Counted from the stretch's first letter, positions 1-21,714 are shown. The stretch is DNA of 35,376 nt from an uncultured Azonexus sp. (GCA_937983545.1 CALJZP010000263.1:1-35376); one strand, 5' to 3'. The notes: generated by a model from the letters alone, not told the origin. Made by a program: numbers and translations.

Positions 1-236
1 CGCAATTTGCCGTCGCTCTCCTCCACCATCTTCAATGCGTAGGCTTCACGCAGCGTGTTCCTGAACATCACAGCCGGGTTATCAATATCCCAATCGTTAC
101 CGCCATGGCGTAGCGCAGGCGGCGACATCAGGTTCTCGATTCGTTCGAGTGGTTCGGACTGGGTTTTGCCACAAAAATAATCGAAGATCAGACGCAGTCT
201 GTTCGGCACAGCTTCCACGGTTGTCACAACACTCAT
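1..236 (-). CDS. N-terminal fragment of the third gene of the helicase operon (DpdG-like by position), runs off the left edge
   Basis: Reverse strand from ATG at 236 reads MSVVTTVEAVPNRLRLIFDYFCGKTQSEPLERIENLMSPPALRHGGNDWDIDNPAVMFRNTLREAYALKMVEESDGKL with no stop; overlaps the upstream gene stop as ATGA. DpdG is inferred mainly from order after SNF2 and RecQ genes. Confidence 0.55.
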   Translation of the reverse strand, partial: MSVVTTVEAVPNRLRLIFDYFCGKTQSEPLERIENLMSPPALRHGGNDWDIDNPAVMFRNTLREAYALKMVEESDGKL

Positions 237-2737
237 CTCATTAGCCTTTGGTGGAATTCGTCGAAATGGAACATCCGCCCATCGAAACACTGGGACAACT
301 TGATGCCGGGACGATCGGGTGACTCGGTATCCATGGGCAGAATAAAGATTCGCGCCTTGTTGATACTGCGCGGGCTGATATTTGTTCTAGTCAGTGGCGG
401 CCGTTCGGCCGACAGAATAACCTCCGGCCCCGGAGGAAGCCGTCCCGGCAGCAGGCGAGCGACTTTGGCGACGAACCACGGATGACCGGACAATCGCCTG
501 GTGACCTCGTTATCAAACTCATCCTGATTCGCCAACAGGGTCAGATTATTCACGCCGCTCTGCCCAAGCACTTCGAAAACTTCGCCCAAGCGCCGGTACC
601 AGCGCGAATCGCGCCCGGCCGAGTCGTAAAAGACGATTAGGCGGTAGCGGCCGTCCATCAAGCCCAACACGGGGTCCACGGGTGGAAGCGGTTGCTGCCA
701 TGGGAAAGTCTGCGCAGTAGCGACAGGCGAGATACGCGATGCCGGCTTCGCACGACACTGTGAACACGAGGTGCAAGCTGCGCCGACCCGGTCATCGCCA
801 TAAAGTTGGATCAACAAGCGGGTAATGCATTCTTGTTGCAGGACGTATCGCTGCATTAGGCTGAGGTTGTTGCTGTTAGCTTTAGCGATGGTCTGCCGCA
901 AAGGCCCAACTCGCCTCTGCCACGTATCATGGTGCAGGTGGTTGTGGTCAAGAATTTCGATCTTTTGCCATGGCTCATAATTGTCCGTACGGCGTTCCAT
1001 GCCGCATTGTCGGATAAGTCCCGCACGCTCCATGAGGGTTAGGGTTCGTGCATTCCAATCCGCACTGAGTTCGCCAACCATGTCGATATCGTCATCGCCC
1101 TGACCGGGACTGGTGTTCAATCGCACATAAAAAACCGAACTGTTTGGGAGATGCTCCCCATTCTCGAACATCGCCTGCCAGCGCTGCAAACCACGCTCGA
1201 TGCCGATGACGGTGACATCGCTGACATGCTTGGCTGCCGACCAATCCTCATGCGCCGGGATCAACAGGGACATACAGGCTCGTCCATCGCGGCCGCCCCG
1301 GCCGACCTCCTGGTAGAAACGGTCCAGAGATTCCGGAATGCATGCATGGACGACGCTCCTGACATGCGGATAATCGATTCCTAGTCCGAATGCCGAGGTA
1401 GCGATAACCAAATCGATATTGCCAGCACGCCATTCGGCGAGCACGACATCGCGCTCGGCGAGGTTGGTTTTCCCGGTAACCAGGCGGATGCGCCGAAAAC
1501 CCAGCCCAGAAATATACTGAAACCAGTTTTCCGCATCGCTCACCCGGGTGACGTAAAGAATTGCCGGCCGGGGAATGTGGTGCAAAGCCTCGATAACGCG
1601 ATCGCTACGCTCAGCTTCGTTCGTCGGCGAGGCGAGCCAATATTCGGGCTCCGGGCGAAGGGTTGCGCCGGCAAATTCAGCGAACTCGCCGGGGGCACCG
1701 AATAATGTTCGTAAGGTTTCGAGTGCGGTTTCGGTGAGCGTTGCCGAAAGGAGAAGCGTGCGTGGCTGCCGGCATTCGGATGAAAGTTGAATCAATTCCC
1801 GGCGCAAGCCACTCAGCAGTTGGAATTCTGTCCGGAAACCAGTGCCCCAGGCATCGACCAGATGCGCTTCGTCAATGACTATGGCTTTGATATGCCCGGC
1901 GCGGGCGGCCGCCTTCAACGGTTCCCGCAATGCCCCGCATACCGCCTCCGGCGACGCGTAGCACAATGACTGGCTACCCGCCTCGATTCTTTCAATGATT
2001 TGTCGGTTATTCTCCTGGTCCCCGCTACGGTAGGCCAGTGGCAACGCGAATCCCACACCCGATGCAGCGGCCTCCTGATCGAGGGCAAGAGCAATGGTAG
2101 GAACGACAACTAGGGTCACTCCGCCATCACTGGGCTGGCCAGGATAATTGCCATAGCCAGCGACAGCCACTGCATGTGGAATCAGGCTCTTTCCCTCACC
2201 CGTCGCCAACGTGATGATCAGTGTGCTGCCGGCGGGCGCCCGCAGTGCGGCTCGCACAGCGTTACGCTGGGCGGCACTTCGATAAGCCTTGCGATTCAGC
2301 TTGGACAGAAAAGGATCAGCCTGCACCGACGCCGCTTCGAAATGCCGGCATACGTTTTCGGCAGAGGCCCAGGCTTCGAGGGAAGGAGTCCCATCGACCG
2401 TGATCCAGTCAGGTTGCCAAGGCAGCGGGGAGACACGCCATCCCCCAGGAATGGCGACAGCCCTCAAGCCAAACGACGACCAGTCTTGCAACTCCATCCA
2501 CCGGGCACCCAACACATCGCATTCGGCCGGAGACGCCCAATTCCTGCGCATTGATTCAAATACCAAGGCCTGCCGCAGGAGTACAGCCAAGTCCGTGATG
2601 GACACTTGGCTAGGTGGGGCGAGGAGTGCTCGGCGAAGTCGGTCGAAGGCGGGAATGTCAGCGGCAGACCAGGTAGCCCCGTCGTCTTGTCCTGCCAGCA
2701 GACGAAAAAGTTTGTGGAATACGGCGGCTTCGTTCAT
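233..2737 (-). CDS. RecQ-like DEAD/DEAH helicase, DpdF-like
   Basis: Walker A-like TLATGEGKSLIPHA, motif II VIDEAHLVDAWG, motif V/VI ATSAFGLGIDYPHVRSVVH...YQEVGRGGRDGR, Cys cluster ACTSCSQC; ATGA overlaps on both sides. Confidence 0.8.
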   Translation of the reverse strand: MNEAAVFHKLFRLLAGQDDGATWSAADIPAFDRLRRALLAPPSQVSITDLAVLLRQALVFESMRRNWASPAECDVLGARWMELQDWSSFGLRAVAIPGGWRVSPLPWQPDWITVDGTPSLEAWASAENVCRHFEAASVQADPFLSKLNRKAYRSAAQRNAVRAALRAPAGSTLIITLATGEGKSLIPHAVAVAGYGNYPGQPSDGGVTLVVVPTIALALDQEAAASGVGFALPLAYRSGDQENNRQIIERIEAGSQSLCYASPEAVCGALREPLKAAARAGHIKAIVIDEAHLVDAWGTGFRTEFQLLSGLRRELIQLSSECRQPRTLLLSATLTETALETLRTLFGAPGEFAEFAGATLRPEPEYWLASPTNEAERSDRVIEALHHIPRPAILYVTRVSDAENWFQYISGLGFRRIRLVTGKTNLAERDVVLAEWRAGNIDLVIATSAFGLGIDYPHVRSVVHACIPESLDRFYQEVGRGGRDGRACMSLLIPAHEDWSAAKHVSDVTVIGIERGLQRWQAMFENGEHLPNSSVFYVRLNTSPGQGDDDIDMVGELSADWNARTLTLMERAGLIRQCGMERRTDNYEPWQKIEILDHNHLHHDTWQRRVGPLRQTIAKANSNNLSLMQRYVLQQECITRLLIQLYGDDRVGAACTSCSQCRAKPASRISPVATAQTFPWQQPLPPVDPVLGLMDGRYRLIVFYDSAGRDSRWYRRLGEVFEVLGQSGVNNLTLLANQDEFDNEVTRRLSGHPWFVAKVARLLPGRLPPGPEVILSAERPPLTRTNISPRSINKARIFILPMDTESPDRPGIKLSQCFDGRMFHFDEFHQRLMR

Positions 2738-5700
2738 AGGGTTTCACTTGCCAATCCAATTTCTCCACAAACGACAAACAGCCCGATGGCATCGAGGCGA
2801 ATCTGCGGTTGTGCCACAGCTAGCGCGATTTGTTGATTGACGTCCAATTCATCTCGGATATCAAGGCCATCGAAATGTGCGCGCCTTAATAGGCTACGCC
2901 TGCGCCGCTCGGCATCCGCGTGCGCCCTGTGAGCAGCCTGTTCGAGCATGGTGAGGACTTCACGCCGTTGAAGGATTTCACACGTTCCTTGCTCGCATAC
3001 CTGCGCACTGAGGGAAGGCAGCAAGGCTGGGTCAATGAATTCGGCCAGTAACTCCGGGCGACTGCCAAGATTCAGGTCGCCCGCGCACCCGTCACGCGTT
3101 TTCCAGTACGGCCGTTCCAGCATCGCCAGATGGTCCGCGTCTGTGACCGGCGTCCCTTTAACATCGAGATAAATCACGTGCATTGACGGCGGCAGGAACT
3201 GCTGCGCTCGACGCAAACCTGCCATGTCATCGGCTCGGGAAAATATCTCTGAGGTTTCCGGCAGGTCTGGTTCAATGACAAAGCATAGTTTGAACACCAA
3301 CCAAGGCGGACTTTCCTTCGGCCAAGTGGGATCGATGCGCAAAGTCAGGAAGGTGGCACCACGATCGTCCCAACGCATAAATCGCTGACAGGAGTCCAAC
3401 AATGGGCTACCTGGCCGTTCCAGTACTACACCCGGATTAGTGATTGCAATGCGCCGCCGCCAAGTCATCATGCGCGAGTTATCCAGGCCGAACTGGGTTT
3501 CCCAGGGCTGGCGCGGTACCAGGGTACGGTCCCCCCAAGCCATGCAGAATATGTCGGGGACTTGCGGCGATGGCCGATAACGCGTCAACTGGAGCGCGCC
3601 CACCAACCAGGACTCCAGAGCCTCACCAAATTTACTCTCCACCTCCTCGAATTCGTCCATCGTTTCGATAAATGCAGTGACGCTCTCATCCGCCAGTGCA
3701 AGTCGATCGAGAGCATATTGCTCATCTTGGGTTTTTCGTTCGGCAGCCACCTTTTCGCGCAAGTTTTCAGCAAACGCCTCCAACCCTATTACGTCACCAT
3801 CGAAAATGACTAGCGCAAATTCCCGGTCGATTTCGTCGAGGAGGAACTGAATATCGCTGATGGGTTCATGAAACACCCGGAAACCTTCGGCAAGCACATT
3901 TTTCCACGCCGACCAAACGCTGCCGTCATCGGTATAGGGAAGTAGGATGCGTTGGCGGATGATGGCTTTGCGCCGACCGAAGCGGTCCACGCGGCCGATG
4001 CGTTGTTCGATGCGTGTCGCCGACAACGGTAGATCGATGTGAACAATCGCATCCGCGAAACTCAGGTTCAGGCCTTCTTCGCCGCTACGATCCGCGATCA
4101 GTAACCAGGTATTCGGCGAATCGATGAACTGCTTGAGGATGCTTTCGACCTGCTCCGGCGAAAGGTCCCGAGTAATCACGCAGGCCGCGGCCCGATCAAA
4201 CCGTGTAATTTTCTTGTGAAGTGCTTGCGCCAAGGAGGATGCCGAGCAAAATGCAACAATCTTGACATTAGCGTGCGGCGACAACTGCCCTTTGAGCAAA
4301 CGAAGGCTGTCTTCCGCAACTTCCAATTTGCGGCGCGGCCCGGGATCGGATTCCAGGATCGACCGGATACCTTCCCTAATCTCCTCCTCGCCCGGGAACA
4401 GAATCGTGCCGGACACCATGGCATCCGCAAAAGCGTCAACGCCGATACCGAGAAACTCGACGAGGTCACGATAACGTAGCGCGGCCTGCAAGCGAATCTC
4501 GTCCGAAGCCCCCTCGACAGCACTACGCGCTGCACAACGCCAATCTTCCAAGGCATTGACGATATCATGGATGCGCCGATCTTCGTCATCGTCGACTTGC
4601 ACGTGCGAAAAACCCGGTTTCTCTCCCTCCTGGACCTTCGGCCCTCGCAGTTGGAATTCCCATCCCGCCGCATCAGATCGCCGGGAGCGAATCACTCGCT
4701 GATTGATGCGGTAAGTGTCGGCTATATGCTGACTGAGTGCAGACGTGAGCATTGCAATATCCTCGACGCCGTCCCTAGTCGCATTCTCCAGGCGATTGGC
4801 AAGTTCTTCGACATCAGTGTCACCAGGGAACAGACGTTTCGCATCGGTTGCCCGACGTCGCAGGATAAGACCCGGCGAATCAGGAATCAGTCCAAGGAGC
4901 AGTCGACCAAACTCCTGCCGCTGGTCCAGTTTCCTTTTGAAAGCCTCCAACTCATCCATGCGATAAGCGTTCGGATCGAGCAGGTTAAGCAATGACAGGA
5001 ATTTCTCCGAATTAGCCAGTGCGGGGGTTGCCGAAAGCAGCAACAAGCGCGGTGCCTTATGGGCAATTTCAGCAAGCTGCGCCCTGATCGCGGGTTCCAG
5101 TTCGTCACCAACGATGTGATGTGCCTCATCGATCACCAGCAAATCCGGAATTCGCTCAAGTTCGTCGCATTCATCGTGGGCAAAAACTTCTGCCGTACCG
5201 AGGAAGTCATCGACGTAGAATTTCTCTCTTAACTCATTTCGCCATTGTGAAACGAGGGAGCCTGGCACCAACACACCAACGTATCTCTCAGGACCGTCGA
5301 TAAGAATCTGCCTGATGATGACGCCGGCCTCGATGGTCTTGCCAAGTCCGACTTCGTCGGCAAGCAAGTAACGCAAGAGCGGATCGCTCAATATGCGACG
5401 AATTGCGGAGACCTGATGTGGAACAAACTCGATACCGCTGGAAATAAGTCCCGTGAGGCCCTGCGCACTAGCGCGGGCTTCAACCAACTTCCTTGTCGCC
5501 GCCAATCGCCGATCATGCAGAAATTGGGCTTCGCCAATACCGGCAGCCAAGATATCAGCAGGATTCCCTCTAGCGCGCCAGCAGCGCACGCGCAAATCGA
5601 TTTCCGGAAAATATTCGATACGCCGATTTGGAAACTGCACCTCGTAATCGACATAACCATTTTCAGAAATATCGTAATTGATGACACGACCGATTTTTGG

Positions 5701-5916
5701 GATGCCATCTTCGGAAATTAAATAAACCCGCGTTCCGGGGCAGAGGAAGGCACGCACCAAACGAGTTGCGGGGAGCCGAACTTCTTCCAGCTCGATAAAG
5801 GAGTGAAACAGTGTAACGATGGCTTCCTGATCCGAAACGCTATCAAGGCGGCCGATACCGGAACCGTCAGGGAGCAAAACGAAGCCCCCGATTTTTAAGC
5901 GAGTTATGCACCCCAT
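2734..5916 (-). CDS. SNF2-family helicase, DpdE-like
   Basis: 1060 aa; YLLADEVGLGKTIEAGVIIRQ, LLVIDEAHHIVGDE, LLLSATPAL, RIEQRIGRVDRFGRR. Upstream of and overlapping the RecQ-like gene. Confidence 0.8.
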   Translation of the reverse strand: MGCITRLKIGGFVLLPDGSGIGRLDSVSDQEAIVTLFHSFIELEEVRLPATRLVRAFLCPGTRVYLISEDGIPKIGRVINYDISENGYVDYEVQFPNRRIEYFPEIDLRVRCWRARGNPADILAAGIGEAQFLHDRRLAATRKLVEARASAQGLTGLISSGIEFVPHQVSAIRRILSDPLLRYLLADEVGLGKTIEAGVIIRQILIDGPERYVGVLVPGSLVSQWRNELREKFYVDDFLGTAEVFAHDECDELERIPDLLVIDEAHHIVGDELEPAIRAQLAEIAHKAPRLLLLSATPALANSEKFLSLLNLLDPNAYRMDELEAFKRKLDQRQEFGRLLLGLIPDSPGLILRRRATDAKRLFPGDTDVEELANRLENATRDGVEDIAMLTSALSQHIADTYRINQRVIRSRRSDAAGWEFQLRGPKVQEGEKPGFSHVQVDDDEDRRIHDIVNALEDWRCAARSAVEGASDEIRLQAALRYRDLVEFLGIGVDAFADAMVSGTILFPGEEEIREGIRSILESDPGPRRKLEVAEDSLRLLKGQLSPHANVKIVAFCSASSLAQALHKKITRFDRAAACVITRDLSPEQVESILKQFIDSPNTWLLIADRSGEEGLNLSFADAIVHIDLPLSATRIEQRIGRVDRFGRRKAIIRQRILLPYTDDGSVWSAWKNVLAEGFRVFHEPISDIQFLLDEIDREFALVIFDGDVIGLEAFAENLREKVAAERKTQDEQYALDRLALADESVTAFIETMDEFEEVESKFGEALESWLVGALQLTRYRPSPQVPDIFCMAWGDRTLVPRQPWETQFGLDNSRMMTWRRRIAITNPGVVLERPGSPLLDSCQRFMRWDDRGATFLTLRIDPTWPKESPPWLVFKLCFVIEPDLPETSEIFSRADDMAGLRRAQQFLPPSMHVIYLDVKGTPVTDADHLAMLERPYWKTRDGCAGDLNLGSRPELLAEFIDPALLPSLSAQVCEQGTCEILQRREVLTMLEQAAHRAHADAERRRRSLLRRAHFDGLDIRDELDVNQQIALAVAQPQIRLDAIGLFVVCGEIGLASETL

Positions 5917-6346
5917 TAATTTCTTCTTATAAGCCTTACGAAATACCAGAACACCTTGACCGCAAGAAGTCAGTAAGCATCTTGTCGTCCCACCAATCGC
6001 ATGATGCCGAGCGCGAGAGCGTTACCCTAAAGGTTAAAGCGTAACCCCACTCTAACTTTATGCCTATCCGACGAACGTCATAACCGACGCCTGAATATTG
6101 TTGGCCTCATCTTCGCCGATAATTTCGGTGGAGTCTCATTAGCTTTATTGCGCAAATGAATGGCCCGCTTATCCGTCGGTGATCAATGTCCGCCCTCGTC
6201 GCCGGCATCGAACGGGCCTGACCAACTGCAGTTATTCAGTTTGCCGTTTGCATATGCTTGCCATTTGACCTTCAGCAGGACCCCAGAATTTGTGATGGAC
6301 GTTTCAAAGAGCAACTGTCTGAAGTGACCTCTGGGCGGCAAAAAAA

Positions 6347-7681
6347 TTAATCAACCAGGTGCAACGAAGACTGGCCATGCTTACAAACACCAGCCCAGAC
6401 CAGAATGTTTGCAATCGGCGTGATGCGACGGAATACGAAATCGCCCTCCTCCTTCCCGTAGATCACCTGCGCTATGTATCCCTCAACGGAATCCAAAGGC
6501 AGTTTGTCATCGCCTAGCTTGCCATTAACCGCATTGCCCCGTTGTGCCTGGCCATTCTTTTCTTTCAGGAATCGCTCAACCTCGTCAAAAACACGCCACT
6601 CAAGCAGCCTCGATGCTCCCAAATTGCTGACCTCGACTCCTTGTTCCGTCAGGATTGCCCCGAAGTTGCCATTCTTTTGCATAGGAATCACAGCTTCGGT
6701 TTCGTTCCCGAACTGCCTGATGATCGCTTCCCTAAACGTTCGCGCCTGATCGTTCCTGGTGTCCAGTTCGGTCTTTTCTGCATCCGCCTCGGGATCGTCA
6801 CTCCGGCCTTTCCGGTCCTTCACCGAATAACCGATCATGAAAAGCGCCGCCTCCAAGGCACGAAGTGGGTGAGCCACGCCGTCGAATCGGCTCTCTTTTT
6901 CCAAAACATACTCGAGAAGCCAGTTCAGATACAGGTTGTGCTTGAAACGGTCTATAGCGGGGCCGAACATCGGAAAAGTCCGATCACCACGCCGGTTGGG
7001 ATTGCGGCGATCCTCATAGCCCCAAGCAAACCGTAAGGCCTGCGGCACGGCTTCGATCTTCTCGGCTTCGACCCACCGCCTCACCAGGAGGCCAAGCGCG
7101 GCACCGACTCGGCCATCGTAGATGGCCCAGTCGTCATTGAGCAGGGAATAGATTTTGGTGGTGCCGGAATCGACTTCCAAACCGTATTCAGCCCCATCAA
7201 TAAGCACAACGAAGGGTGTGCTCCCGTCGCAGCCATTCAAATACGCGCGGACAGCAGCGAGATAGGCAGGCAGGTTTTCTTCTAGGGAGCGGATAAGCCC
7301 GGCGACTTTCCACTGTGCCACCCCTCCCCAGCGCAGGATATTTTCGCAGGCGGTCAAGGCCGCCTCAGCGTCATGGTCATCAATTGCTTGGTTGAGCGTT
7401 TGTCCCAATGCCCGTAAGCACTGCTCAGACTCAGCAAAAGTGTAGATGACTTGATCATCCTCCTTGGTCGGATCAACCGATTTCCAATAGTACTTTTGAT
7501 ACGCATCGAACAGGGAAGAACAGGACCAGATATCACCTGCCCGCTTGGCAGCGCGACTACTGGAGGCCACCCACTGGTGAAGCGTTTGCGTCGCCTTGCT
7601 CTCAGCCTGCAGGGGATCGTCCAGATATCCGGAAAGCCACTTCACGAACCCTTGGGCATCGACCCGGAATTGCTCTTTCAT
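6347..7681 (-). CDS. Hypothetical protein, no family recognised
   Basis: Long ORF; start chosen at MKEQFRVDAQGF preceded by a strong GGGGGG Shine-Dalgarno on the minus strand (track ORF runs to 7702). Confidence 0.75.
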   Translation of the reverse strand: MKEQFRVDAQGFVKWLSGYLDDPLQAESKATQTLHQWVASSSRAAKRAGDIWSCSSLFDAYQKYYWKSVDPTKEDDQVIYTFAESEQCLRALGQTLNQAIDDHDAEAALTACENILRWGGVAQWKVAGLIRSLEENLPAYLAAVRAYLNGCDGSTPFVVLIDGAEYGLEVDSGTTKIYSLLNDDWAIYDGRVGAALGLLVRRWVEAEKIEAVPQALRFAWGYEDRRNPNRRGDRTFPMFGPAIDRFKHNLYLNWLLEYVLEKESRFDGVAHPLRALEAALFMIGYSVKDRKGRSDDPEADAEKTELDTRNDQARTFREAIIRQFGNETEAVIPMQKNGNFGAILTEQGVEVSNLGASRLLEWRVFDEVERFLKEKNGQAQRGNAVNGKLGDDKLPLDSVEGYIAQVIYGKEEGDFVFRRITPIANILVWAGVCKHGQSSLHLVD

Positions 7682-7848
7682 ATCAGTTCCCCCCTTTATC
7701 AATTCTCAAGAATCCATTTATCTTGAACGGGATATCGCCAGTTCGAAATGCCCGCCATTCTACCCATGCAGCATGAGTTCAGCGCCATCGATTGGCTGCC
7801 GAGCCCTATTGTCCATGATCGCCTTGCAGGCCTGGCTATTACGCTGGT

Positions 7849-8532
7849 TTATTGCAAGCGAGGACCATCAGAATGTTCCTGCCAATGGGATTGCATAGCA
7901 ATTTCAGTCATCAGGTCAATTCGCCGCTGCCCAACCCCGAAGAATGAAAATTCATGGAGGATCGAGTAAATGACTTGCCCCAGAACCGGCAAGCCGAAAT
8001 CCAGTTTGTCGCGAGCCCTTTGGCTGTAGTCTTCCCACACCTTAGTGCCACATTCGAAACGCAACGGACAGTTCATCCATTCACTGGGCGCAGCGTTCGC
8101 CATACTCCAGCGCTGGCGATGTCCGGTCGCAAACGCATACGGATCACGGATGAGCGGCTCTTTGAGACTGAATCCCACGGCAGTGAGGTCAAGCAAATGC
8201 ATGGGCTGAAATGTCCTGGCATCACGATCGAACCGGCAGTTGCGCCTCAGTTCGAGATACTCCACACCGTCAGGATCATATTCACTCGAATGCGGCATGG
8301 CCTCTCCTGAAAACGCATCCTCCAGCAATTCGCGGCCAGACACGTTCTTGTAAATGTTTAGAAGCCCGGGATTATTGCGGAGCACTTGGAACACATCCCC
8401 CAACCTGATGCCCTCTTCCATTTCAAGCATCTCGAAAAGATAGCCGACAGCATCACTGGAAACGCTAGCCCGATCGCCGGTGCAACGAATGAACTCCAGA
8501 TTCCCACCGGCCTTCAGCATGACGCGCCTCAT
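7849..8532 (-). CDS. Hypothetical protein, no family recognised
   Basis: 227 aa ORF, co-directional with 6347-7681, protein-like composition (MHLLDLTAVGFSLKEPLIRDPYAFATGHRQRWSMANAAPSEWMNCPLRF). Confidence 0.7.
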   Translation of the reverse strand: MRRVMLKAGGNLEFIRCTGDRASVSSDAVGYLFEMLEMEEGIRLGDVFQVLRNNPGLLNIYKNVSGRELLEDAFSGEAMPHSSEYDPDGVEYLELRRNCRFDRDARTFQPMHLLDLTAVGFSLKEPLIRDPYAFATGHRQRWSMANAAPSEWMNCPLRFECGTKVWEDYSQRARDKLDFGLPVLGQVIYSILHEFSFFGVGQRRIDLMTEIAMQSHWQEHSDGPRLQ

Positions 8533-8589
8533 GGCATTGCCTCCACAATTGCCTGTTTGCAGGCGACAACGAGGATCATTACCCGAAAT

Positions 8590-8608
8590 GACGACAGTTG
8601 ATGTCGTC
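8590..8608. promoter_or_regulatory. Palindrome GACGACA-GTTGA-TGTCGTC, candidate operator
   Basis: 7-bp perfect arms, 5-nt spacer, in the divergent intergenic region; overlaps a possible -35/spacer upstream of TATGAA at 8612. Confidence 0.5.
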
Positions 8609-8693
8609 GTTTATGAAACACCCCCTTCTAATTACGACACCATCTGTCGCCACCGGACCTCACCATGCCTCCATCACGCTTACGGAGGCTTCC

Positions 8694-9323
8694 ATGAAAC
8701 CATTCGCTTTCCTTCTGTTGGCCGCAGGCCTGAGCGCCTGCTCGTCAAACGTCCAACGCCCTACACTACCCCAGTCTGCTCCCGCATCCGCCCCATCCCT
8801 GCCGACTACGGCCAGCCTTGAAGAGGCAATCGGTGGCATCCAACTCACCTTCGATACCGAAGGTAATTGGATCAGGATGACGACGTCAGGAAGCGCCGAA
8901 CTGGCGGACGATTCCGCCGCCGGCAAGGAAAGCGCCTTCATGATCGCGTCCATGCGCGCCAAGCGGACGCTGGCGGAGTTCCTGAACAACAACATCAGGT
9001 CGAAGCAGTCGCTCGAGCGCATCGCCCGGACCTACCGTCGCTCAATCCAGGACAGTGAGAGCCTGGAAACCGATGGCTCTGCAGACGAGGCCGAAGGAGG
9101 GAGCGACAACCTCTCGCGAACCGGACGCGATCGGCAGGCGCATCGTCTGGCCTCCGTCCTGACCGAACGGATCAACGACAGCAGCGCCGCCATTCTGCGG
9201 GGTGTCCATTTGAGCCTGCAGCACGTCCAGGGGGACCGGATGGTGGTCGAGCTGACGGTTTCCCGCACGTCCCTCGGTGCGGCCCGCAACCTGTCCCGGA
9301 CGATGAGCGGGTTGGGGCAATGA
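8694..9323 (+). CDS. Predicted lipoprotein (LPP20-like, tentative)
   Basis: MKPFAFLLLAAGLSACSSN signal peptide with LSAC lipobox; SD ACGGAGG before ATG 8694. Confidence 0.75.
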   Translation: MKPFAFLLLAAGLSACSSNVQRPTLPQSAPASAPSLPTTASLEEAIGGIQLTFDTEGNWIRMTTSGSAELADDSAAGKESAFMIASMRAKRTLAEFLNNNIRSKQSLERIARTYRRSIQDSESLETDGSADEAEGGSDNLSRTGRDRQAHRLASVLTERINDSSAAILRGVHLSLQHVQGDRMVVELTVSRTSLGAARNLSRTMSGLGQ

Positions 9324-10366
9324 AGGCGATCATCGCGGCGTTGCTGTGGATCAGCGCCGGAGTCCAGGCTGTGGAAGTGACAGCCACGGGTTTTGGCCGG
9401 AGCGCCGACGAGTCGCTCGCCCAAGCGAAGATGGCCGCGCTGGAACGAGTCGCCGGCACCTTTGTGGTCGGAGAGTCCGATACCGATGGAAAGCGCTATC
9501 GGGAGCGCATTGTGCAGTACCACGGCGGCTACATCCGGCACCACGAAGTCCTGTCCGTAGTCGAGCGCTCCGGGCTGATCGAGACAAGCATCCGGGCCGA
9601 CATCGACGACGCGAAGGTCAACGCCGTGCTGCAGTCCCAGGGCAGCGATCTGCCCGGCGATCTGGCCGAGCAGATTACCCGGGCACAGAATGAACAAGCG
9701 AGGACGCAGGCCATGCTGGCGGCCCTCGACGATCCCAGCCAGGCCTTTGCCGTTCAGATCCTGAGAATCGGCATCGCGAACCGCGGCGAGGTGAGCGATG
9801 TCACCGTCGAGGCCAGGATCGTCTTCTCGCCCAAATGGGTCGATGATGTCCGTACGTTAGCCCGTGCAATTGGCCGCCCGGTCGACACCGGCAGTGCCTG
9901 GCAGGAGGCCCTGTGGGGCTTGGGCGCCCTGACCGCTGTCGTCAACCCAGCCCTGCCGGGGCATCTCTTCTCGGTCGCGCGTCACACCCAGAAACCGCCC
10001 AAATCAGCCCAGGACTACATGGCCTGTTTCAGCCGCACTAACCAATGGGACGTCGACGAATGCTTCGAGATTCTGCATCCGTTGCTCCGGACGACCGGCG
10101 ACAAGCGGTTGCGACTGCGGGGCACGGTCTGGCTGGGCGACGAAGCTCGCCCACTGGAGCCGTTCGTAATCGACTGCCAGCACCAGCTGTTCATTACGGT
10201 ACAGGACGGACAGAAGCTCTATTTCAGATCGAGCGCCCGTGAGCGCCGGTTTTCCAATCCCGGCGTCCTTCTGTTCGAGCGGGGTATCATGCCGTTCAGT
10301 TACAGCTTCACCGCACCCACGAGTACCGTGAAGCGCATGACCCGGATTGAACTGGCGCCCGCCTAG
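9320..10366 (+). CDS. Predicted secreted protein with FlgT/LPP20-like N-terminal region (tentative)
   Basis: Signal peptide MKAIIAALLWISAGVQA; VEVTATGFGRSADESLAQAKMAALERVAGTFV; start overlaps the lipoprotein stop (ATGA). Confidence 0.75.
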   Translation: MKAIIAALLWISAGVQAVEVTATGFGRSADESLAQAKMAALERVAGTFVVGESDTDGKRYRERIVQYHGGYIRHHEVLSVVERSGLIETSIRADIDDAKVNAVLQSQGSDLPGDLAEQITRAQNEQARTQAMLAALDDPSQAFAVQILRIGIANRGEVSDVTVEARIVFSPKWVDDVRTLARAIGRPVDTGSAWQEALWGLGALTAVVNPALPGHLFSVARHTQKPPKSAQDYMACFSRTNQWDVDECFEILHPLLRTTGDKRLRLRGTVWLGDEARPLEPFVIDCQHQLFITVQDGQKLYFRSSARERRFSNPGVLLFERGIMPFSYSFTAPTSTVKRMTRIELAPA

Positions 10367-10392
10367 CGGCAAGCCATTTTCCGGGAGACCGT

Positions 10393-11433
10393 ATGGAGAC
10401 TCCGAACGCCATGGACAGCGTCAGCACTACTCTGCGTTATCTCGCCACTGTCGAATTGATCCCCAGGGACCCGAAGCGCATCTCGACGACCGAAATCATT
10501 CAGAGCCTGCAGCAACAGGGCTTCACGATCAGTTGCCGCAGCATCGAACGCGACCTGCATCGGCTCTCGACGGTGTTTGGGTTCAAGAGCATCACGGCAG
10601 GCCGGGACAACTACTGGTCCTATGAACCCAAGGCGCTGCCGCGCATGTTTCCGATGATGGATGAACATACGGCCTTGTCTTTCCAGTTCGTCGAGGCCCA
10701 TCTGAAGAATGCCCTGCCGCCGGACACCTACGATGCCATCGACCCCTGGTTCCGGACGGCCGGCCAGCGTCTGAAGGAACGTTCGACGGCCCATGCCCGC
10801 TGGCAGGAAAAGATCCTGCTCCGCCCAACTGGATTGCAGCGCCTGGCCCCCAAGGTGGATCAAGCGGTCCGGCACACCGTCTACGCCGCCTTGCTCCACG
10901 AGCAGGCGCTGACCATTCAATACCGTGCCCGCGGCGCCAAGGACTATAAGGAGCATTTCATCAGCCCGCTGGGTCTCGTCGTGCGGGATCGGGTGCTCTA
11001 CCTGGTTGCCTGGTTGCACAGGCGGGAGGTCATCGGCCAGTTCGTCCTGCATCGCATGCGGAGTGCTATTGCTTCAGCCGATGGCTATCTTCGCCCCGAC
11101 GGTTTCAATCTGGCGCTCTACGCCGAAGAGCATTTCGGTTTCCCAATGGGCCCCTCCAAAACGATCGAACTGAAAGTCCGTCTGCAGGGCCAAGCAGTCG
11201 TCAGTGTCGACAACTGTCCGATCAGCCCGCGACAGACACTCGTGCCCGATGGCGACGGCTATTTGCTCAGCGCGACCGTTCCAAACACCTTGGAACTCCG
11301 CCAGTGGATCCGGTCGCTCGGCAAGGACGCCGAAGTGCTGGCCCCGACCGACCTGCGGGCCGACTTGGCCGAGGAAATCGGCGAGCTCGCCCGGCGCTAT
11401 GCCGGTTCCATCCAGACTGCCGCAATTGCCTGA
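10393..11433 (+). CDS. WYL-domain HTH transcriptional regulator
   Basis: N-terminal HTH (ISTTEIIQSLQQQGFTISCRSIERDLHRLS), WYL-like core (LTIQYRARGAKDYKEHFISPLGLVVRDRVLYLVAWLHRREVIGQFVLHRM), C-terminal WCX-like segment. Confidence 0.9.
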   Translation: METPNAMDSVSTTLRYLATVELIPRDPKRISTTEIIQSLQQQGFTISCRSIERDLHRLSTVFGFKSITAGRDNYWSYEPKALPRMFPMMDEHTALSFQFVEAHLKNALPPDTYDAIDPWFRTAGQRLKERSTAHARWQEKILLRPTGLQRLAPKVDQAVRHTVYAALLHEQALTIQYRARGAKDYKEHFISPLGLVVRDRVLYLVAWLHRREVIGQFVLHRMRSAIASADGYLRPDGFNLALYAEEHFGFPMGPSKTIELKVRLQGQAVVSVDNCPISPRQTLVPDGDGYLLSATVPNTLELRQWIRSLGKDAEVLAPTDLRADLAEEIGELARRYAGSIQTAAIA

Positions 11434-11444
11434 GGAAACGCCCC

Positions 11445-11894
11445 ATGGCCATGACTGCCCTTCCTCCGGAAGAATGCCAAGAGATTCTGGCGCTCTTTCG
11501 CGAAAAGCTACCGAACGTTCCGGACATCCTGCGGCAGGAACTGGCCGCCCAGTATGGCAAAGATTCGCTGGCCGACGTCGATCCGATGGACATCATCGAG
11601 ACCAACGCCGAGGCCAAGCGAATCGAACGGATTGAGTTTCTCGCCACTGAGACTGAGACATTGGCTGATGCCTTCAATCGCCTGGTAGAAAGGTGTCGTG
11701 ATGCGGTTCCTCAGGCGATGGGCGCCTTCCTGGCGGTCAGCTGCCCATCCGCCCGCTTTCGGGAGTATGGCGACCTCCTCAACCATTTTCATCGGGTGTT
11801 CGATGAAGAGGTATCGCGCCTGAGCGCCCTCTACGTCGAGCCGGGAACCCGTCCCGAATCCCGACTCCTGTTGCTGCTGGCGGTGAAGAATTAA
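11445..11894 (+). CDS. Hypothetical protein
   Basis: ORF MAMTALPPEECQEILALFREKLPNVPDIL...; starts 11 bp after the WYL stop. Confidence 0.65.
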   Translation: MAMTALPPEECQEILALFREKLPNVPDILRQELAAQYGKDSLADVDPMDIIETNAEAKRIERIEFLATETETLADAFNRLVERCRDAVPQAMGAFLAVSCPSARFREYGDLLNHFHRVFDEEVSRLSALYVEPGTRPESRLLLLLAVKN

Positions 11895-11906
11895 TCCCAA
11901 CGAACG

Positions 11907-11923
11907 GCGACACTGAATGTCGC
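11907..11923. promoter_or_regulatory. Palindrome GCGACA-CTGAA-TGTCGC, candidate operator
   Basis: 6-bp perfect arms, 5-nt spacer, same CGACA-N5-TGTCG core as 8590-8608; lies in the intergenic gap before 11971. Confidence 0.5.
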
Positions 11924-11970
11924 TGATGGTTTGCATACTCCAGGCATGAACATGTCCTGGAGGACGGGTA

Positions 11971-12246
11971 ATGAGCCATTCCGGAGATCGTCGGGTAACC
12001 ACCCGGCCCCTGCTTTTCAATGATCCCGTGAAGGGAGAAGTTTTCGAGATTCCGGCAGGTGAGCCTTGCGTTGTCTTCGATTCTGTGGAGCAGGCAAAGC
12101 AACGCGGTCTGCTGCCGGACGAACAAAGCCTCTGGGCGGCCCGGACCAATGTTCAGCGAGGCTATCGCCTGGCCTGGCTGCGTGGCCTGCTAAGGGGAGT
12201 GGCCGAGGCAGACCTCAGTGTGCTGGGGGACGGCAATGCGCCCTGA
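11971..12246 (+). CDS. Small hypothetical protein (91 aa)
   Basis: GGAGG SD 7 nt before ATG; overlaps the next gene start. Confidence 0.65.
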   Translation: MSHSGDRRVTTRPLLFNDPVKGEVFEIPAGEPCVVFDSVEQAKQRGLLPDEQSLWAARTNVQRGYRLAWLRGLLRGVAEADLSVLGDGNAP

Positions 12247-12778
12247 AGCAAAAGCGGCGAAGCCGCGCATCGTTTCCGTTGCAGCCTCCCAACGGCTATG
12301 CGCTACCTGCGCTCGCTGGAGCGGGGAGCGGCAAGTATGTAACCCGGGGAACGGCGAGGTCCAGGTGATTTGCCCTGCTCCCGACGAAGGCACTTGCCAG
12401 AACGGCGGATGGCGGGGGTTCCCGACGCTGGCACGGCAGACTTGCGGCGATTACCGCCGCTGGGATTCGTTGGCTGGCCTGCCTGGCGATGTACCGCAGC
12501 CGACGTCCCTGCAGCGCGTCCATGCCGAACTACAGATGCTGGCCGGGGTGACGCCTGAACTGCCGGCATCGCTGCAGGAGCGCCTGGACGGTGTGCTGTC
12601 CGACATCGACACGTGGTTCATGGCCTGCCAAATGTCGAGGGACGGATTCACGCCGGCCGAACTGCAGGCCTTCTGGGCACGTGTCATCGATCCGCTCCTG
12701 GAGTGTTTCTTCTGGCTGGGATGGAGCCGACGCAAGCCGCTGAAATCCATCGCCCTCGAGGACATCTGGCCGCTCTAG
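12236..12778 (+). CDS. Hypothetical Cys-rich protein
   Basis: Start ATG 12236 overlaps the previous stop; N-terminal half contains CATC plus four further Cys (QVC, VIC, GTC, QTC), suggesting metal binding. Confidence 0.65.
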   Translation: MRPEAKAAKPRIVSVAASQRLCATCARWSGERQVCNPGNGEVQVICPAPDEGTCQNGGWRGFPTLARQTCGDYRRWDSLAGLPGDVPQPTSLQRVHAELQMLAGVTPELPASLQERLDGVLSDIDTWFMACQMSRDGFTPAELQAFWARVIDPLLECFFWLGWSRRKPLKSIALEDIWPL

Positions 12779-12886
12779 TGGCCAGATGCGGGCATGCTCG
12801 TTAGCCGACCTGCCCAAGCTTCACGTCATATCGAGGCCGGGGATGACTTATGATTGTTGAATTGTTTCCGATCGCCGGATAAGCGC

Positions 12887-14386
12887 GTGACCAACCTTTC
12901 CAAGTCCAAACTGATCGCCTATCGCCAGTGCCCCAAGCGGCTCTGGCTGGAAATCCACCGCAGGGAGCTGCTCCAGAATTCGGCGGCTACCCAGGCGTCC
13001 CAAAACATCGGACATGAAGTGGGCGACGTGGCCCGTCGAATTTATGACCCCGAGAGGAACGGGCACTTTCTGAACCTGAGCGAACTGGGTTTTGGTGAGC
13101 TCCTGTCCCGGAGTGACACGCTGGCCAGGACAGCGGATTCCCCTCTGTTCGAAGCTGGTTTCAGCGCCAACGGGGCGCTCGCTCTGGCGGACGTGATACT
13201 GCCTGTCACGACCGGCAGCCGGCGGACTTGGCGGATGGTGGAGGTCAAGTCGTCCACCAGCATCAAGGATTATCACCGGGACGATGCCGCCATACAGGCC
13301 TATGTCGCCCGGGCAGCTGGCGTGCCGCTGACGGCCATATCGCTGGCACACATCGACAATTCCTGGGTTTATCCGGGCGATCAGGACTATCGTGGGCTGC
13401 TGGTTGAAAAGGATCTGACCGAGGAGGCTTTCGCCCGCACAGCAGAGGTCGAGCGCTGGATCGCTGAGGCGCAATGCGTGGCCGGCCAGGAAAAGGAGCC
13501 CGAAGCGCCCGCAGGCATTCGATGCGACAAACCCTATGCGTGCGGTTTCATCGACTATTGCCATGCTTCGGATGCCTTACCCGAGCATCCGGCCTCCTGG
13601 TTACCCAATGTACAGAGCAAGGCCCTGATCGCCTGCCTGGCCGACGGCGCGGTGGACATGCGCGACGTACCGGATGAACTTCTCAACGCGAAGCAACTCC
13701 GTGTCAAATGTTGCACGCTACGCGATGAAGTTTATTTCGATACGCAGGGCGCTACCCGGGACCTGGCATCGCATCCTTTCCCGGCCTGTTTCCTGGACTT
13801 CGAGACTGCGATGTTCGCCGTTCCCATCTGGAAAGGAACGCGCCCCTACCAGCAGATCCCCTTCCAGTTCAGCCTGCATCGTCTGTCACCGGCCGGCGAC
13901 CTCAATCACCAGGAATTCCTCGACCTCAGTGGCGACGACCCGTCGCGGCGATTTGCTGAAGCGTTGGTCAATGCCTGCGGTGTGGCGGGAACAGTCTATG
14001 TCTACAACGCCCGCTTCGAACGCACCCGCATCAAAGAACTGGCAGGACGCTTCACCGACCTCGCCGCTGCATTGCTGGCCATCAACGATCGGATTTTCGA
14101 TCTTCTCGATGTCGCCCAGGAGCGCTATTACCACCCCAACCAGCAAGGAAGCTGGAGCATCAAGAAGGTGCTGCCGGCGATTGCGCCTGACATCAGCTAC
14201 GACCAGTTGGAAGGCATCCAGGATGGGGGGATGGCGATGGAAGCTTTCAAGGAAGCGATTAATCCGGTTTGCCCGCCCGAGCGCAAAGCCGAGATCGAGA
14301 GGCAATTACGCAGGTACTGTTCGTTGGACACGCTGGCGATGGTCAAGCTCTGGGAATATTTCGGTCAGCAATGTAAGCGCAATTAA
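12887..14386 (+). CDS. DUF2779-type protein: Cas4/RecB-like PD-(D/E)XK domain plus DEDD exonuclease-like C-terminal domain
   Basis: GTG start MTNLSKSKLIAYRQCPKRLWLE; motifs ALADVI, MVEVKSS, DDAAIQAYV; Cys pattern YRQC + RCDKPYACGFIDYC; C-terminal FLDFETAMF, VYNARFERTRIKEL, RRYCSLDTLAMVKLW. Confidence 0.85.
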   Translation: MTNLSKSKLIAYRQCPKRLWLEIHRRELLQNSAATQASQNIGHEVGDVARRIYDPERNGHFLNLSELGFGELLSRSDTLARTADSPLFEAGFSANGALALADVILPVTTGSRRTWRMVEVKSSTSIKDYHRDDAAIQAYVARAAGVPLTAISLAHIDNSWVYPGDQDYRGLLVEKDLTEEAFARTAEVERWIAEAQCVAGQEKEPEAPAGIRCDKPYACGFIDYCHASDALPEHPASWLPNVQSKALIACLADGAVDMRDVPDELLNAKQLRVKCCTLRDEVYFDTQGATRDLASHPFPACFLDFETAMFAVPIWKGTRPYQQIPFQFSLHRLSPAGDLNHQEFLDLSGDDPSRRFAEALVNACGVAGTVYVYNARFERTRIKELAGRFTDLAAALLAINDRIFDLLDVAQERYYHPNQQGSWSIKKVLPAIAPDISYDQLEGIQDGGMAMEAFKEAINPVCPPERKAEIERQLRRYCSLDTLAMVKLWEYFGQQCKRN

Positions 14387-17990: not shown

Positions 17991-18314
17991 GTCGTCACCG
18001 ACTCACAATGTTTAATATCTAATCACCATGCCGATTTGGTGTCAACGCTGCCAGAGACAAACATTTCCGTCCTGGCATTATTCTGGTGGCAAAACGCCGC
18101 TCAAACCCACGCCAAATCTGAAAATCGATTCCCGTCAGGTTGAGGCTGATATTGGAATCGACTCTGAAAACTCCAAAATCACGCGAGAAGGCCAGTTACC
18201 TTCCCTTCTCCGAAGCCACTACGCGGCCGGAAATAATGAACCAGATAGCCACGCCGTCTCAGTGCGCAGGCAACCCAGACCCCGTAACTCAAGACAGATA
18301 GAAAATTCGGTGCT

Positions 18315-18425
18315 GACGCCAAAATGGCGTCAATTTGGCGCCATTTTGGCGCCGATTAGCCTAACACCATAATTCGATATTGCTGCGGTGCCAAATTGGC
18401 GCCAAATTGGCGCCAATTTGGCGCC
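18315..18425. repeat. Two iteron-like arrays of 11-bp GGCGCCAAWTT units
   Basis: Block 1 GACGCCAAAAT GGCGTCAATTT GGCGCCATTTT GGCGCC (18315-18353); block 2 GGTGCCAAATT GGCGCCAAATT GGCGCCAATTT GGCGCC (18387-18425). Confidence 0.75.
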
Positions 18426-18490
18426 GCTCGAGTTATCGTCGCGCCTAGCAAAGCTACTTCCGCATATTCGCCTCAAGGAGATCACCGCCT

Positions 18491-18738: not shown

Positions 18739-19761
18739 ATGAGTCTAGCAGCCATGGTTTGGTCAATCGAACAGCGAATTGTTGTCGATCCCACTGCTCG
18801 CCATGTTCTTTTGTGCCTTGCAAATCGGGCGACGGTGGAGGGTAAAGCTGCTTTTCCTTCAGTGGAAACGCTACAACTCGATACGTGCCTGGCAGAGAGA
18901 ACGATCCGATACAAGCTTGGCCATCTGGAATCCCTTGGCGTCATCAAAAAAGGAGACCAAAGAATTTCAGCCAAATTCGTCGGCAGAGCGGATAGAACAC
19001 CTACGTGTTACGACTTATGCATACCTGATTCTTGGCTCGAGGCCTGGAATGAGCGCCGAGGTGCAGCAGTTGCACCCCGTGGCTCAACGAGGTGCAACGG
19101 GGAACAAAAACAGGTGCAAATTAAGGCACTACCGGGTGCACCAATTGCACCCAAACCGTCTCCTGAACCTCTTGAAAAACCTCCTCTGGGCAGCTCTGAA
19201 AATTCTGGAGGAAACGAGATCGAGTTAGATCGTCGTGGTGATGAATTGGATCTAAGCCTACTTCCTGAGGGACTGCACCTCGACGTTCTCCGGTTAGTTT
19301 CAACCACTGAAAAACCTCAAAACTATGCTGACCTGCTTGCTGCGCGAATGATGGACAACAAGTTGGATCCGCTAGAACGTCCTGTGCGCTGGCTTGAAAC
19401 AATTATCGCCAAAGGCAACCCTGACTTTTCACCCGCAGTAAAGATAGCGGGGAAACGCGAGATGCGCGCCCAAGAGGAACAACAAGCCCATCAAGCATTT
19501 ATACGTCGGCAAGAATCGGAAAATAGGCAGACTTTGGAAATTGCAAAAGCTCAAGCTCTTCTCGGCTCGTACTCCGAAGAAGAGCTTCTTCAAGTTGCGA
19601 ACGATGCAATTGAAGAGCTCCCAGGGCCGATAAAAACCAAAACACAGCATGAAGTGCGGTCTGAAGTATTTAGTCGCTCGTTAGGAAAAGCCATGACGCG
19701 CGTCGCGATCCTTAATGTCATTCGGCGCCGTCTGGAAAACGATAAACATCAGTACACATGA
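18739..19761 (+). CDS. Helix-turn-helix (winged-helix) protein, possible island replication protein
   Basis: N-terminal MVWSIEQRIVVDPTARHVLLCLANRATVEGKAAFPSVETLQLDTCLAERTIRYKLGHLESLGVIKKG resembles HTH_36/phage RepO-like winged helices; repeat arrays lie upstream. Confidence 0.7.
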   Translation: MSLAAMVWSIEQRIVVDPTARHVLLCLANRATVEGKAAFPSVETLQLDTCLAERTIRYKLGHLESLGVIKKGDQRISAKFVGRADRTPTCYDLCIPDSWLEAWNERRGAAVAPRGSTRCNGEQKQVQIKALPGAPIAPKPSPEPLEKPPLGSSENSGGNEIELDRRGDELDLSLLPEGLHLDVLRLVSTTEKPQNYADLLAARMMDNKLDPLERPVRWLETIIAKGNPDFSPAVKIAGKREMRAQEEQQAHQAFIRRQESENRQTLEIAKAQALLGSYSEEELLQVANDAIEELPGPIKTKTQHEVRSEVFSRSLGKAMTRVAILNVIRRRLENDKHQYT

Positions 19762-20300: not shown

Positions 20301-20531
20301 ATGACCAGCAAGATCCTCATTAACCGCAAAAAGCTACTCTCGATGATTCCGCTGTCGGAGCGCACCATCTTCAATATGGAGCAGCGAGGGGAGTTCCCGC
20401 GACGCATTGCGCTCACTAGCCGGAACGTGGCCTGGGAGTTGAAGGAGGTCGAGGCGTGGATTGAGGCCCGCAAGTCGTCTGGTATTCAGGCGACGCGCCC
20501 CGGTTTCATGCCGATGACCGTGGCCGCCTGA
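20301..20531 (+). CDS. AlpA-family phage regulatory protein
   Basis: ILINRKKLLSMIPLSERTIFNMEQRGEFPRRIALTSRNVAWELKEVEAWIEAR, AlpA/MerR-like HTH; next to integrase. Confidence 0.85.
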   Translation: MTSKILINRKKLLSMIPLSERTIFNMEQRGEFPRRIALTSRNVAWELKEVEAWIEARKSSGIQATRPGFMPMTVAA

Positions 20532-21714
20532 GCGTCCATTCGTCAATCATGTCCGCCCAATCCTGCAGCATAGCCGCGCGTTGCTCCCGATACTCGGCCT
20601 TGTTGTACACCGCCCTGACGCCCTTCTGTTCGTGGGCAAGGCACTTCTCGATCCAGTCGGTGTTGTACCCGGCTTCATGCAATAAGGTGCTGGCCGTTCG
20701 GCGCAGATCGTGCGGCCCGAACTTCGCCAGAGCCTTGCCTTCTTTTTGCGCCAGTTTGTAGGTAAGCGTCAGCACCTGATTCAGGGTTGCGCTGCTCATG
20801 GGCGTGTCCGAGTCGTACCGCGACGGCAGCACATAGTCAGAGCCGCCCGCGAAGGTTTTCAGGGCAATGAAGATGTCCAGCACCTGCCTGGACAAATAGA
20901 CGTTGTGCGGGTTGCGCCGCTTCATCCGTTCCTTGGGAATCGTCCAAACCGCCTCGGTGAAATTAACCTCGCTCCAGGTCGCGTTCGTCAGTTCGCTCTT
21001 ACGTACCATCGTCAGCAGCAGTAATTTGGCCGCCGCCCGGATAGATGGCGCCGTGCCGATTCTCTCGATGTACTGGTACATCAGCGCGATCTCGTCGGGC
21101 GTCAGCGCCCGGTCGCGTGGCTCGAACTTGGCAATGGTGGTTGGCCTGACCATTTCCGCCGGGTTCTCGACCTTCTGGCCACGCTCAATTGCCCACCGGA
21201 ACACCTGCATGACCACCTCGCGCACGTGCACCGCTGTAGCCGGTGCGCCGCGCTCCACGATGGCGTCGGTCAGGATCCGCAAGTCCTCGTGGGTGATCTC
21301 GGCCAGCTTCTGGTTCCCGAACTTGGGCTTCAACTCGCGCTCATAGACCGACCGGCGCATGTCGCGGGTGGAGTCGGCCATCTGGTAGCCACGCAGCCAC
21401 TTTTCCGCCCAGGCACCGAACGTCTCGGCATCCTTCACGCGGGCCTTGTCCCGCGCCTTCTCCTTCGCCGGGGATTTCCCGCCGGCAATCATCTTCTTTG
21501 CCTCGCCCAACTGCTCGCGGGCTTCCGACAGGGTGATGCCACCAACGCCGTAGCGCCCGAAGGTGATGGTCTCCTGCCTGCCGTTGATCGAGTAGTTGTA
21601 GCGGAACGAGATCGACCCAGCAGGCGTGACGGCCGCATAGAGGCCGTCGCGGTCGTTCACTTTGTACAGCTTGTCCTGCGGCTTGAGGTTCCGCAGCTTG
21701 GTATCGGTCAGCAT
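20506..21714 (-). CDS. P4-type tyrosine integrase
   Basis: MLTDTKLRNLKPQDKLYKVNDRDGLYAAVTPAGSISFRYNYSINGRQETITFGRYG arm-binding domain; VRKSELTNATW, GPHDLRRTASTLLHEAGY, CLAHEQKGVRAVYNKAEY. Confidence 0.95.
   Translation of the reverse strand: MLTDTKLRNLKPQDKLYKVNDRDGLYAAVTPAGSISFRYNYSINGRQETITFGRYGVGGITLSEAREQLGEAKKMIAGGKSPAKEKARDKARVKDAETFGAWAEKWLRGYQMADSTRDMRRSVYERELKPKFGNQKLAEITHEDLRILTDAIVERGAPATAVHVREVVMQVFRWAIERGQKVENPAEMVRPTTIAKFEPRDRALTPDEIALMYQYIERIGTAPSIRAAAKLLLLTMVRKSELTNATWSEVNFTEAVWTIPKERMKRRNPHNVYLSRQVLDIFIALKTFAGGSDYVLPSRYDSDTPMSSATLNQVLTLTYKLAQKEGKALAKFGPHDLRRTASTLLHEAGYNTDWIEKCLAHEQKGVRAVYNKAEYREQRAAMLQDWADMIDEWTLRRPRSSA

Follow-up and report, generated by a model that had tools for sequence, protein, structure and literature searches.

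A seven-gene run on a contig of an uncultured Azonexus sp. probably belongs to a modular, defence-type regulon that a WYL regulator would hold repressed, in the manner of the BrxR and CapW loci, although defence, repression and a role at the envelope are inferred. Exact copies of one short palindrome stand in front of an exported lipoprotein gene and in front of a second group of genes that ends with a DUF2779 nuclease-like gene, and much of the gene set recurs in three congeneric species.

Gene content and genomic setting

The window, i.e. the whole stretch of 35,376 nucleotides that was analysed, is the entire contig C263 of a 3.66-Mb genome that is in 326 contigs and 86% complete. A co-directional run on the + strand spans positions 8694-14386 (Table 1), and contains all the gene kinds named in the original prediction, namely the exported pair, the WYL regulator, the 149-aa, 91-aa and Cys-rich proteins and the DUF2779 protein. 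Of the eight co-directional genes claimed there, the shared direction stands but the gene list gives seven. P0001 overlaps P0002 and P0005 overlaps P0006; there is a 76-bp gap between P0004 and P0005 (11895-11970), and a 108-bp gap separates P0006 from the DUF2779 gene. Since the 76-bp gap bears its own predicted operator, the run looks like at least two transcription units. One conserved eight-gene operon was rejected, given seven genes in probably two units and a shuffled order elsewhere, as was a chance stack of genes, which is contradicted by the recurrence and the operators. The operator palindromes, the 451-aa gene P0009 and the dpdE and dpdF genes on the left had been absent from the original prediction.

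Table 1. Features of the window, with positions counted from its first nucleotide.
Feature	Position	Strand	Remarks
dpdF and dpdE	236-5916	-	Dpd 7-deazapurine system; PADLOC 5.5e-218, 2.6e-210; cut by contig end
P0009, 451 aa	6347-7702	-	divergent relatives in all three sister loci
P0008, 227 aa	7849-8532	-	divergent from operators 1 and 2
Predicted operator 1, CGACAGTTGATGTCG	8592-8606		divergent promoter region between P0008 (-) and the lipoprotein gene (+); exact match
Predicted operator 2, CGACACCATCTGTCG	8635-8649		44 bp upstream of the lipoprotein ATG; exact match
P0001, exported lipoprotein, 209 aa	8694-9323	+	lipobox LSAC (by inspection)
P0002, exported protein, 348 aa	9320-10366	+	4-bp overlap with P0001
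P0003, WYL+WCX regulator	10393-11433	+	PF13280 2e-13, PF25583 5e-15; PADLOC WYL 7e-27
P0004, 149 aa	11445-11894	+	fourth gene of the first unit, positioned after WYL
Predicted operator 3, CGACACTGAATGTCG	11908-11922		48 bp upstream of the 91-aa gene; exact match
P0005, 91 aa	11971-12246	+	homologue in the G314 locus (E 2e-32)
P0006, Cys-rich, 180 aa	12236-12778	+	overlaps P0005; N-terminal segment with conserved Cys, rarer C-terminal half
P0007, DUF2779 protein	12887-14386	+	PF11074 E 1e-42
Dense inverted and direct repeats	18314-18427		replication-origin-like, just upstream of the HTH_36 protein
HTH_36 protein	18739-19761
Tyrosine integrase	20506-21714		abuts the next gene
Probable guaA	22021-23778		precedes the IMPDH gene

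Among the seven genes, only the WYL and DUF2779 proteins have convincing matches in the family libraries. A PADLOC negative, which had been proposed as a check, holds apart from these same two proteins: no known anti-phage component was matched in the scan of the locus genes besides WYL and, weakly, Cas4 (in the DUF2779 protein). The likeness of the locus to the Dpd system is that of a physical neighbour only. The dpd genes lie on the divergent strand, do not have this operator type in front of them and are absent from the sister loci examined, and membership of the locus in Dpd, a separate system with no common parts, was rejected. Beyond the run, origin-like repeats precede an HTH_36 protein gene, and a tyrosine integrase gene abuts what is probably guaA, which makes the insertion of an island there likely.

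A predicted operator palindrome before both probable units

The palindrome CGACA-N5-TGTCG has three matches in the window when up to one mismatch is allowed, all of them perfect, two before the lipoprotein gene and one before the 91-aa gene. They lie within 3.3 kb, as against 0.065 exact sites expected in the window (Markov), and the whole 3.66-Mb genome has six. A matrix of the form GCGACA-N5-TGTCGC, made from these sites, gives no further convincing match in the window. As palindromes precede both units, both would therefore be tied to one WYL regulator.

The motif was derived from the window alone and applied to 28 other loci without re-fitting. Of 58 homologues of P0001, P0002, WYL, AAA+, NADAR or DUF2779 genes, 16 have it at their promoters, versus 22 of 413 neighbours (Fisher 1e-6, operon-internal downstream genes being scored as misses), figures that are indicative, since the loci share ancestry and the families were picked after some sites had been seen, so that the p-values overstate independence. 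Control palindromes of the same composition reached at most 3 in this test. In G275, one of the sister species introduced below, an exact palindrome lies 44 bp upstream of an AAA+ gene that is located on a different contig, and in G312 and G314 NADAR genes bear the operator; NADAR genes with the same operator were recorded at 7456-8740 in locus L064 and at 5486-6007 in locus L075. The island of G314 also encodes Sir2-like and DraG-like proteins (by inspection). Farther away, WYL relatives that are 27-34% identical to P0003 and accompany unrelated cargo have the palindrome nearby on plasmids of Marinobacter, Pseudomonas, Sphaerotilus and Citrobacter; in the plasmid loci L007, L008, L009 and L011 the cargo beside the palindrome and a P0003-like WYL gene includes dynamins and BREX genes. 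A text search of the literature for the operator sequence returned noise only.

P0003 is presumed to bind these palindromes, and the WYL control that the original prediction had proposed is supported by their placement, their rarity and their marking of promoters. The protein has both a WYL and a WCX domain, while matches to an N-terminal HTH at residues 21-60 are weak and below the cut-off. A phmmer search of the PDB at E≤1e-3 returned two chains and no more, the WYL-domain chains 7u02 and 7tzv; neither BrxR nor CapW was among the matches. Both BrxR and CapW are repressors of defence loci that act at inverted repeats, those of BrxR having a spacer of 5 bp (PMC9122601, PMC9122589, PMC9122588), as do the operators predicted here. 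Further points of likeness are the WYL+WCX regulator itself, the inverted repeats upstream of defence-type genes and the varied cargo that travels with the regulator. By contrast, the regulator gene is first in the BrxR locus but third here, the predicted operators precede two separate units, starting with P0001 and P0005, and the cargo consists of an exported pair and a dual nuclease.

Recurrence in sister species

Sister loci were found in three congeneric species (G312, G275 and G314) within a comparison set of 61 genomes of the genus. Homologues of P0002 are present in four of these 61, the genome of the window included, and homologues of P0004 in three; among 101 relatives, P0004 homologues occur only in G312 and G275, again just after the WYL gene. 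The order lipoprotein, exported protein, WYL and 149-aa protein is kept in G312 and G275, and thus in three species with the window, and is followed in both by a P0009-like gene and a Cys-rich gene, the distance between DUF2779 and the exported gene being 1.6-1.8 kb. The G314 locus has the exported pair beside a tandem AAA+ ATPase gene and the 91-aa homologue; DUF2779 and another WYL gene lie ~7 kb from the pair, and a second tandem AAA+ match ends just before DUF2779. Identity to the window amounts to 42-46% for P0001 and 43-47% for P0002 in the three species, and in G312 and G275 to 43-45% for the pair, 40-42% for WYL, 33-41% for the two small proteins and 66-68% for DUF2779. The DUF2779 gene of G275 has two in-frame stops, and the nuclease would therefore be dispensable there.

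Overall, DUF2779 lies within 8 kb of the exported protein in all four genus genomes that have P0002, while it is present in 10 of the 61 (some matches being partial), which gives a hypergeometric value of 4e-4 for the co-occurrence. Recurrence of the gene set is thereby borne out, with the same four-gene operon, P0006 and DUF2779 in G312 and G275, and the exported pair, P0005 and DUF2779 in G314. A single fixed system is not: DUF2779 occurs mostly with WYL, and often with AAA+, but without the exported pair, and a diverged pair exists without WYL or nuclease. The original prediction had treated membership of the pair and the nuclease in unrelated conserved operons as evidence against it. The two do occur separately, which half bears this out, but because the operator is common to both operons, they are nonetheless argued to be co-regulated. 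Judged by sequence comparison, the locus is modular and not one fixed operon.

Full-length homologues of P0006, in which Cys22, 25, 54 and 70 are invariant, occur only in G312 and G275, while its N-terminal segment alone recurs across the genus. P0009-like genes lie at 9438-10685 in L064, 9358-10620 in L065 and 3273-4358 in L075, and belong to a fast-diverging family, the copies of G312 and G275 barely aligning although neighbouring genes are 57-81% identical. This family has no match in Pfam, NCBIfam, PHROGs or the PDB, and in 229 genomes of the class no P0009 was found besides the window's own. P0008 resembles, at 30% identity, the C-terminal part of a protein with a 5'-nucleotidase domain that is encoded close to DUF2779 in Paraburkholderia (L013), and is a possible third unit of the regulon. 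The P0005 homologue in G314 adjoins the AAA ATPase gene, and a single-sequence structure model of P0004 was uninformative (pLDDT 44.5). Single-sequence searches of plasmids and viral contigs with P0002, P0004 and P0006 found nothing, nor did such a search of genome contigs with P0002, for which a three-sequence alignment recovered only the G275 contig.

The DUF2779 protein and the exported pair

P0007 combines a Cas4-like PD-(D/E)XK domain with four Cys and a DEDDy-like exonuclease domain of the RNase H fold. In the former, which gives a weak PADLOC Cas4 match (6.5e-7), C15, D102, E119, K121, C213, C219 and C225 are invariant among 14 homologues, as are D304, E306, D405, Y477 and D481 (DxE, D, YxxxD) in the latter. 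The predicted dual-nuclease architecture is therefore supported by the retained residues of both motif sets, and was already on record for the DUF2779/COG2251 family: the passages of PMC3985635 consulted place DUF2779 in a clade of 3'-5' exonucleases, joined to the PD-(D/E)XK-like DUF83 domain. Those passages do not describe the WYL/AAA+ neighbourhood or the operator, and DUF2779 is not mentioned in a phylogenomic study of Cas4 (PMC5704561). As for the Cas4 of CRISPR adaptation, the scanned window proteins include no cas gene, and no array-like direct repeats were found.

Of 29 DUF2779 loci, 17 have a WYL gene ≤5.4 kb away, often directly adjacent, and 10 have a tandem AAA+ ATPase nearby. By sequence, DUF2779-WYL is a widespread unit, often with the ATPase; in PADLOC, the ATPases of these loci obtain general AAA matches only, and the trio is not named. 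The window has WYL and DUF2779 but not the ATPase, for which no match was found in the window's genome at its 86% completeness.

A diverged exported pair (P0002 21%, P0001 35% identity) is present in five species that belong to another genus of the family. There its surroundings in the chromosome are conserved, with clpB-like and apaH-like genes next to it (by inspection) and no WYL or nuclease near. Because it stands alone there, the pair was probably recruited into the WYL-controlled locus. P0002 has no Pfam match; its low-confidence model (pLDDT 60) matches a chain of the Campylobacter flagellar-motor periplasmic scaffold over ~100 residues (E 5.8e-4), and its N-terminal domain may thus have a FlgP/LPP20/FlgT-like fold. 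In contrast to such proteins, no flagellar genes were found alongside, and a flagellar origin of the pair was discarded, the genes at 22-26 kb including IMPDH and none matched as flagellar.

Proposed mechanism and alternatives

In the proposed mechanism, for which BrxR and CapW serve as models, P0003 (or its WYL counterpart in the sister loci) would sit as a dimer on the GCGACA-N5-TGTCGC palindromes and hold off the P0001-P0004 and P0005-P0006-DUF2779 units, possibly together with the divergent P0008(-P0009). A ligand arising from phage infection or DNA damage would occupy the WYL domain and thereby free the operators; the regulator might also be an activator, not a repressor. Once the units are expressed, invading or damaged DNA might be the target of the DUF2779 protein, through both its Cas4-like nuclease and its DEDDy 3'-5' exonuclease. 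The two exported proteins might meanwhile alter the envelope, so as to block entry or re-infection or to counter envelope stress. A stronger version, in which the exported pair and the cytoplasmic dual nuclease make up an undescribed defence system, their joint deployment by a single WYL regulator at a dedicated operator coupling an envelope change at the entry site to the destruction of DNA, seems rather doubtful.

The WYL protein could also control independent cargo, with the envelope operon and the nuclease under common control but not acting jointly, as BrxR-type regulators do in mixed defence islands. Such a mosaic, which we regard as a tentative but real contender, accounts nearly as well as the regulon for the shuffling of gene order and content among the four loci, for the occurrence of DUF2779 and of the exported pair each without the other, and for the palindrome beside WYL genes with unrelated cargo, whereas it leaves the fixed P0001-P0004 order in three species and the DUF2779 gene within 8 kb in every genus genome with the pair less well explained. 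Far less probable is a regulon for DNA damage or envelope stress, not phage defence, in which WYL would respond to the products of damage, broken DNA would be trimmed by the nuclease and the exported pair would serve the envelope under stress. The operator-bearing NADAR genes of G312 and G314 would suit it, NADAR products being described in PMC11543638 and PMC11125620 as reversing guanine ADP-ribosylation, as would the WYL activator SiwR, which, according to PMC10693628, responds to genotoxic stress in mycobacteria. However, the patchy spread (4 of 61 genomes in the genus) and an island setting next to dpdE/dpdF and integrases are more in keeping with mobile defence than with a core stress response.

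Implications

The WYL-repressed, modular regulon remains the favoured reading, and suggests a little-studied, mix-and-match anti-virus locus. If this is true, one short palindrome would report the genes under a widespread class of WYL regulators, and uncharacterised defence genes would become findable by their promoters, beyond neighbourhood alone. Envelope proteins would join the cargo of WYL-controlled defence loci, and the DUF2779 dual nuclease would gain a testable role.
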